Position numbers and translations under genes: made by a program | In this document: one piece after another, positions 7,407-7,721 of the stretch | How positions within the stretch are numbered: position 1 is the stretch's first letter | Layout: each line of letters opens with the position of its first letter | Notes under the pieces: model-generated | The model's input: only the letters and a program-made list of their open reading frames with translations | Databases searched by the model: none | What the model was told of the DNA's origin: nothing | IMG/VR virus record: IMGVR_UViG_3300027852_000195 | Span: 1-20,759 of that record | From: a virus | Length of the DNA: 20,759 nt | Reading direction: 5' to 3' (one strand)

Positions 7407-7465
7407 GCATAACGCCCGATTGTAAGCGGTGCAGCTTTTGCATCCGATTGACAAACTTGTTAGCT
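7407..7465 (+). repeat. attC-like recombination site (F), best-formed copy
   Basis: GCATAAC (7407-7413) and GTTAGCT (7459-7465) are the outer boxes. The inner arms TGTAAGCGGTGCA (7421-7433) and TGCATCCGATTGACA (7439-7453) pair as TGT/ACA, AA/TT, CGG/CCG and TGCA/TGCA, leaving one mismatch and two unpaired bases (T and G on the top-strand 3' arm). An imperfect palindrome with extrahelical bases on one arm only, an unpaired spacer by the outer boxes and a small loop is the textbook attC architecture. Outer sequence ATAACGCC...AACTTGTTAGC matches the family of sites A-C. Confidence 0.75.
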
Positions 7466-7715
7466 GTGGAGGCTGATATGAAGACTACAGAAGTTTTATA
7501 TGAAGATTTATACGCCCGCATTATCCGTATGAAGAAAGAAATTGAGAGTGCTGAGGGCTGCTTAGCTGATCGAGATTTTTTACAGTGTGCTGTTCGTCTA
7601 CAGCAGGCAGGAGGCGAAACTGCATTTGATAATTTACATTTAAATATTATGGATTCAATGAGCGGAACTGACAGTTAACAGAGAGATCGGCGGCCACGTC
7701 CGCTGCATCGAGGTG
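7459..7715 (+). mobile_element. Single integron-like gene cassette
   Basis: From the G-TT of site F to the G-TT of site E lies one small gene with its own ribosome binding site followed by an attC-like site, the definition of an integron cassette (about 257 bp). The two flanking sites belong to different sequence families, so the cassette (carrying site E) would have been inserted at site F. Confidence 0.55.
7478..7678 (+). CDS. Hypothetical cassette protein (66 aa)
   Basis: The frame opens at GTG 7391 but that stretch runs through site F. ATG 7478 has TGGAGG (7467-7472) 5 nt upstream and is preferred. The 66-residue protein is mostly one or two helices: TEVLYEDLYARIIRMKKEIE, then AEGCLADRDFLQCAVRLQQA, and an acidic C-terminal segment. 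A heptad-like spacing of hydrophobic residues (L, Y, I, M, I) suggests a short coiled coil or dimer. No family recognised. The stop TAA (7676-7678) is in the outer box of site E. Confidence 0.6.
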   Translation: MKTTEVLYEDLYARIIRMKKEIESAEGCLADRDFLQCAVRLQQAGGETAFDNLHLNIMDSMSGTDS

Positions 7716-7721
7716 TTATTG
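7673..7721 (+). repeat. attC-like recombination site (E), second family
   Basis: AGTTAAC (7673-7679, with the stop codon) and GTTATTG (7715-7721) are the outer boxes; GATCGGCGG and CCGCTGCATC are the inner arms with unpaired bases on the 3' arm. Shares TAACAGAGAGATCG, CGTCCGCTG and ATCGAGGTGTTAT with site D, 2.67 kb upstream, and lies in the same position relative to the preceding stop codon. Confidence 0.6.

Follow-up and report, generated by a model that had tools for sequence, protein, structure and literature searches.

The window analysed here, a stretch of 20,759 nucleotides comprising positions 1 to 20,759 of the IMG/VR virus record IMGVR_UViG_3300027852_000195, carries a small gene unit at positions 7413–7678 which we interpret, with a probability of about 0.8, as an integron-type cassette in a phage, placed beside a resident attC site by a host integrase acting in trans. 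Both sites that bound the unit have attC architecture, their boxes pair as they do in bacterial arrays, the unit is absent from a syntenic relative in which the left flank is kept, and like arrangements are present at other places in this phage and in a relative. The coordinates are collected in Table 1.

Table 1. Features of the window on and around the predicted cassette; scores in bits are those of the covariance model R1.
Feature	Positions	Strand	Properties
S1, short attC-like site without L stem	4083–4114	+	At dUTPase stop codon; 12.3 bits, E 0.22; box chain 6/7
S2, attC site	4342–4403	+	52.9 bits, E 2.8e-13; among the sources of the training-loci pattern
S3, attC site with long variable part	4741–4822	+	26.9 bits over full length
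S4, attC site, anchor-type	4999–5051	+	Last site on the right in the dUTPase array; 14.3 bits, E 0.058; geometry score 8.5
Phage backbone	5057–7405	+	180-aa protein, SSB, HNH proteins, noncoding element; syntenic in G001
S5, attC site	7407–7465	+ (attC bottom strand)	R1 score and minimum-energy attC fold
S5 left box	7407–7413	+	GCATAAC
S5 right box	7459–7465	+	GTTAGCT
S5 extrahelical bases	T7443, G7450		7 nt apart on one arm
Predicted mobile unit (cassette), S5 and 66-aa gene	7413–7678	+	Box chain; ORF end at cut; absent from G001
66-aa ORF	7478–7678	+	GGAGG 7468–7472; ATG 7478; TAA 7676–7678
S6, attC site, anchor-type family	7673–7721	+	Geometry score, fold, family alignment, pattern
S6 boxes and extrahelical bases		+	Left AGTTAAC, right GTTATTG; T7699, C7706

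Sites were scored with R1, a covariance model built from 29 aligned bacterial integron sites, of 35 listed. The training loci, 12 bacterial loci including Povalibacter, Pseudoxanthomonas, Luteimonas and Rheinheimera, were found with a pattern based on S2 and S3 and not on the sites at 7407 or 7673. All matches of R1 to S1–S6 lie on the plus strand, and the best match elsewhere in the window reaches 10.8 bits. The maximum was 13.4 bits in the whole of the related phage contig G001 (43,959 bases) and 12.3 bits in a further 15 phage loci totalling 153,745 bases, scanned with default filters. Two published carriers served as positive controls: the model detects four sites in Pseudoalteromonas phage H101 and another two in Tetrasphaera phage TJE1. 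When 16 phage sites were aligned to R1, 93.6% of stem cells were paired, against 72.5% in shuffles, and 13 of 19 pairs were changed on both sides; the covariation, calculated on an alignment that itself leans toward structure, was 0.358 against 0.090, with slid controls at or below 0.059.

The left site, S5, is found by R1 with 38.0 bits (E 6.5e-9; 20,759 bases, both strands, filters off), a score aided by the TAACGCC and CTTGTTA common to the window sites behind the training-loci pattern. Within it TGTAAGCGG/TGCA is complementary to TGCATCCGATTGACA, eight of nine L-stem pairs are present in the attC geometry scan, and two bases stay unpaired on a single arm, much as the first-pass annotation had described this site. 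Conserved extrahelical bases 6–8 nt apart on the R''–L'' arm are described in the accessible text of Bouvier 2009 (PMC2727003); S5 has them in the expected order on that arm, G7450 first and then T7443. Both S5 and S6 have R boxes of the AAC/GTT type together with complementary inner L boxes. The minimum-energy structure of the S5 plus strand is the attC fold with an unpaired central spacer, its stability being ordinary (20 of 200 shuffles equal it), and folding the minus strand of the sites gives poor structures where the plus strand gives the attC fold. BLAST searches of S5 and S6 against phage records returned weak partial matches only.

The right site, S6, which includes CAGAGAGATCGGCGG, scores only 9.7 bits with R1 (E 1.3), short of significance by the sequence model alone; we count it as attC-type because of its structure. 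It has all nine L-stem pairs, a T at the correct distance, an unpaired spacer and the boxes TAAC/GTTA. Its geometry score of 9.5 is the top of the attC scan, with 0.005 expected per shuffled strand (400 shuffles), for a template composed after the sites had been inspected; 23 of the 29 training sites score at least 8.5, as does the stretch 1126–1204 of the window. Its extrahelical pair is C7706/T7699, with C where G is usual, and was counted as such; a change of this kind brings a minor loss according to the accessible text of PMC2727003. Again the minimum-energy structure of the plus strand is the attC fold, of unremarkable stability (equalled by 39 of 200 shuffles). The geometry and the fold thus bear out the proposal that a second site at 7673–7721 holds the stop codon of the gene. 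The further proposal, that the two sites belong to different families, holds in that S6 differs in sequence from S5, and fails in that S6 does not form a family of its own: it joins S4.

The extrahelical bases of the window sites lie on the right arm of the plus strand, which makes the plus strand the attC bottom strand and places cleavage in the left box. The usual gene–attC polarity is a common rather than an absolute trait of cassettes. Among bacterial units, the longest ORF is opposite the R1-matched strand in 47 of 57, the other 10 being inverted, whereas in the phages it is on the R1-matched strand in 19 of 20 units (Fisher 6.6e-10). The figure of 19 is conservative, as the lone non-inverted unit, in the related contig G007, also has a plus-strand ORF of equal length, 69 aa (7200–7409). 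For the bacterial count 74 of 79 matches were used, two partial matches and three opposite-strand echoes being left out, and units with a gap below 60 or above 1500 bases were skipped in both the polarity and the box count; the 20 phage units do not include a G007 site at 46307–46391 (21.9 bits) or a degenerate one near 5398. Since the phage cassettes are inverted, the attC belonging to the 66-aa gene is the upstream S5, and the downstream S6 belongs to whatever comes after it. The limits 7461–7717 and the polarity implied in the first-pass annotation therefore have to be replaced: the sites run opposite to the gene, and the unit is the 266 bp of 7413–7678, from the AA↓C cut of the S5 left box to the AA↓C cut of the S6 left box.

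The outer bases in the box of an integron array site derive from the cassette that follows, which is why a right box should pair with the next site's left box. Over both phages together, neighbouring boxes pair at 7/7 positions in 16 of 20 cases and at 6/7 or better in all 20, against one of 20 at 7/7 for the two boxes of the same site, and the sum over this box chain was reached in none of 20,000 permutations. The bacterial control gave 7/7 in 45 of 57 units. Of the 19 units with an ORF on the plus strand, 14 have a stop codon that ends precisely at the predicted cut. The unit at 7413–7678 is among them: the left flank ends GGCATAA, the stop TAA of the gene sits inside the S6 left box and ends at the predicted cut, and the unit comprises a single gene and one attC whose box pairs with that of the far junction at 6/7 positions, the odd one being a wobble. 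This supports the claim of exactly one cassette-like unit with attC sites and of a 66-residue gene with its own GGAGG, its own start and a stop codon within the second site.

Searches of Pfam, PHROGs and NCBIfam gave no match for the 66-aa protein, nor did those of viral contigs, plasmids and phages, and the gene was found in none of 369 Gammaproteobacteria with a query run without a positive control. The AlphaFold2 model, made from two sequences, has three helices (mean pLDDT 69.6, pTM 0.39); it was too uncertain for a fold search. The product is probably an accessory phage protein. A 103-aa cassette protein gave hits in four of the 369 genomes at E 0.003–0.006, three of them with internal stops, and these were taken as chance. 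PHROG matches at E < 1e-3 were obtained for six of 16 G007 cassettes and none of the four in the window, that is for six of 20 phage cassettes against none of 10 bacterial cassette proteins, the latter hand-picked from 16 listed; this is no more than suggestive that some phage cassettes hold genes which are ordinary genes in other phages.

Two relatives allow the unit to be placed in its genomic setting; a scan for relatives via a lineage protein returned these two contigs only. G001 (IMGVR_UViG_3300027852_000071), found via the 180-aa protein, is syntenic with the window from the window start to about 9060. Behind the noncoding element it has a different gene and no recognisable attC at the place of the unit, and its dUTPase/MazG end is followed by a 67-aa gene, again with no attC. 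It is a phage of the same backbone lacking the unit, as the first-pass annotation had suggested looking for. It does not provide an exact empty site, as it keeps the left flank but has another gene there. The 66-aa gene is accordingly not vertical phage DNA carried by all close relatives without attC-type repeats: it is absent from G001 and has no match in G007 other than a weak one to a 29%-identical protein in the equivalent last cassette. Adjoining S5 on the left is a 184-base noncoding element (7222–7405; L017 7154–7337 in G001), perhaps a phage RNA, which is 90% identical between the window and G001, the neighbouring proteins being only about 57–61% identical; its 39-base core is present in just one further viral contig.

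The second relative, G007 (IMGVR_UViG_3300032277_000005; 52,702 bases), was found with a pattern of S6; its two ends share an overlap of 127 bases, such as a circular contig would show. The dUTPases of G007 and the window have 94% identity. R1 finds 11 sites at 23 bits or more, up to 44.3 bits, and structure together with box chain raises the count to at least 20 attC sites, distributed over four arrays: one behind the dUTPase, two flanking a relocated segment with S4 and HNH genes, and one on the other strand. At the dUTPase place the window and G007 hold wholly different cassettes at the same TAA↓C. The segment consisting of S4, a remnant of the 180-aa gene and HNH lies elsewhere in the G007 gene order (L037 447–2369, against 4999–7721 in the window), the window and G001 agreeing with each other; with attC arrays on both sides, it may have been moved by attC recombination. 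The 180-aa gene itself is cut in frame to the short remnant, with both ends kept (L037 534–592). S3 and one G007 site share a variable part, GTGAGGAACGAAATGA... (window 4762–4800; L039 about 4737–4806), able to encode the protein start MRNEM; the unfiltered R1 match within S3, at 4744–4819, has 16.6 bits (E 0.012). Other candidate relatives were set aside: those with the M15 gene (L002–L007) are not syntenic, and those with the TerL gene (L008–L010) have structural genes alone in common. Scans for tRNA and Rfam families were empty.

The family of S4 and S6 behaves differently from the remaining sites. Its five members, two in the window and three in G007, have 97.4% of stem cells paired and two pairs changed on both sides, a pairing that with n = 5 is equalled by 40 of 500 shuffles. 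In the window the family pattern has two matches and in G007 three, with none in G001 or in the 369 Gammaproteobacteria; a stricter form had no exact match in a collection of genomes from 84,980 species, and no bacterial source of the family was found in either set. G001 retains half a site of this type without an array (L017 about 786–812). Five of the six arrays close on the right with a site of this family (two of two in the window and three of four in G007, the exception being the G007 dUTPase array). Because insertion at the cleavage box of a resident site would put every new cassette on its left, as seen here, these sites look like docking anchors for cassettes. An ACATAAC box is also present at 1126–1132 of the window, at the spot where G007 has two arrays and the moved segment, and is possibly an empty docking place.

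The preferred reading can be put as a mechanism. A host integron integrase would work in trans on the folded plus strand, and a circular cassette would be joined into the resident S6 at the AA↓C of its left box, to lie immediately to the left of S6. The polarity of the attC would set the direction of insertion, and the phage operon would read only those cassettes in which the gene is reversed relative to the attC, so that these would be the ones retained. Neither TIGR02249 nor PF00589, for integron integrase and tyrosine recombinase respectively, has a match in the window (a fragment), G001 or G007, a PF00589 control being positive in 14 of 14 named genomes, and the intI gene of a complete integron was found in none of the three. 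S1–S4 and S5–S6 each have the composition of a CALIN, at least two nearby attC sites and no integrase. It follows from the missing recombinase in the three phage records that the enzyme came from the host, or that the arrays were copied from elsewhere. The former is plausible because published phage attC sites are substrates: five of six recombine with IntI1 in E. coli, according to the accessible text of Qi 2023 (PMC9892861). Tentatively, and with less confidence than in the cassette itself, one may imagine that the phage lineage keeps its own conserved attC family as fixed docking anchors in the role of attI, on one side of which host integrases stack cassettes from a phage-adapted, gene-inverted pool, sometimes shifting backbone genes (SSB/HNH) as giant cassettes; this would be an integron without an integrase, borrowing the enzyme of each host, a picture we consider possible but doubtful.

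The copying of arrays from elsewhere is the strongest competitor, although an unlikely one. Here mosaic recombination would have delivered a copy of an array formed in another phage or in a bacterial array, no integrase having acted on this phage. Apart from the missing recombinase, this is favoured by a lineage that is itself mosaic: TerL among the head genes of the window (12544–20759) is 75–80% identical to that of contigs L008–L010, and these genes have no DNA match in G001 or G007. The S4/S6 family, a 50-bp near-repeat at several places, could moreover serve homologous recombination. Against it, the breakpoints coincide with AA↓C in the boxes, the chain of boxes is unbroken, and at the dUTPase place the window and G007 have wholly different cassettes joined at the same TAA↓C.

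A somewhat less probable alternative concerns the number of places. The stretch 4083–7721 could be a single array with no second place, in which the fourth member is a giant cassette of 2.4 kb with SSB and HNH genes. The S4 right box and the S5 left box do pair at 7/7 positions, a like pair in G007 reaches 6/7, and the S4–HNH segment of G007 lies elsewhere between attC sites on both sides. Against this, 7/7 is reached in 8%, and 6/7 or more in 36%, of all 676 box pairs, and the segment has different right ends in the window and in G007. The G001 counterpart of 5057–7405 is ordinary syntenic backbone in the same order with no recognisable attC. For this reason we take the two array places as separate, as first proposed, and one continuous array (permutation 2/120) was dropped as the main reading. 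The corollary, a second insertion event at another place, stands as far as the separate place is concerned; attC recombination may, however, have bounded or moved the intervening 2.4 kb itself.

It is very improbable that the hairpins only resemble attC and are intergenic repeats or terminators of the phage, as the poor sequence-model score of S6, fold energies near those of shuffles and the restriction of the S4/S6 family to this lineage within the data searched might suggest, given the two extrahelical bases at the right spacing, the unpaired spacer, the box chain, the covariation and the clear matches to bacterial attC.

CALINs in virulent phages are already described in the accessible text of Qi et al. 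2023 (PMC9892861), and by comparison with these the phages analysed here have several arrays per genome and a conserved attC family that ends five of six arrays on the right. The published accounts, as far as their accessible text extends, mention neither anchor-type attC repeats nor inverted cassettes in phages. That phages carry cassette arrays is known; the anchors together with the consistent inversion are the new part. The closest parallel is Pseudoalteromonas phage PH101/H101 (NC_029094), which likewise combines attC arrays and small genes with no integrase, and whose four R1 sites (24–34 bits) lie on the strand of the annotated genes, that is in inverted polarity; this attC cluster with inverted genes is at L052 25919–27987 (NC_029094 75919–77987). 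The CALIN of Tetrasphaera phage TJE1 (NC_019930) is similarly phage-borne, with two sites by R1, but has the canonical polarity, its sites matching opposite the annotated genes. The sedentary chromosomal integrons of Gammaproteobacteria (L020–L031) share the attC architecture, the extrahelical bases and the box chain, whereas the phage arrays differ from them in the inversion of the genes, in having no integrase and in being embedded in phage operons. Here, then, is a phage lineage that can carry integron-type cassettes in large number and at several places, with a polarity that the operon can nearly always read. If the anchors work, such phages would repeatedly take up and pass on cassettes and have their own gene pool, rather than being merely accidental carriers of stray attC sites, which bears on where cassettes originate and how they travel between hosts.
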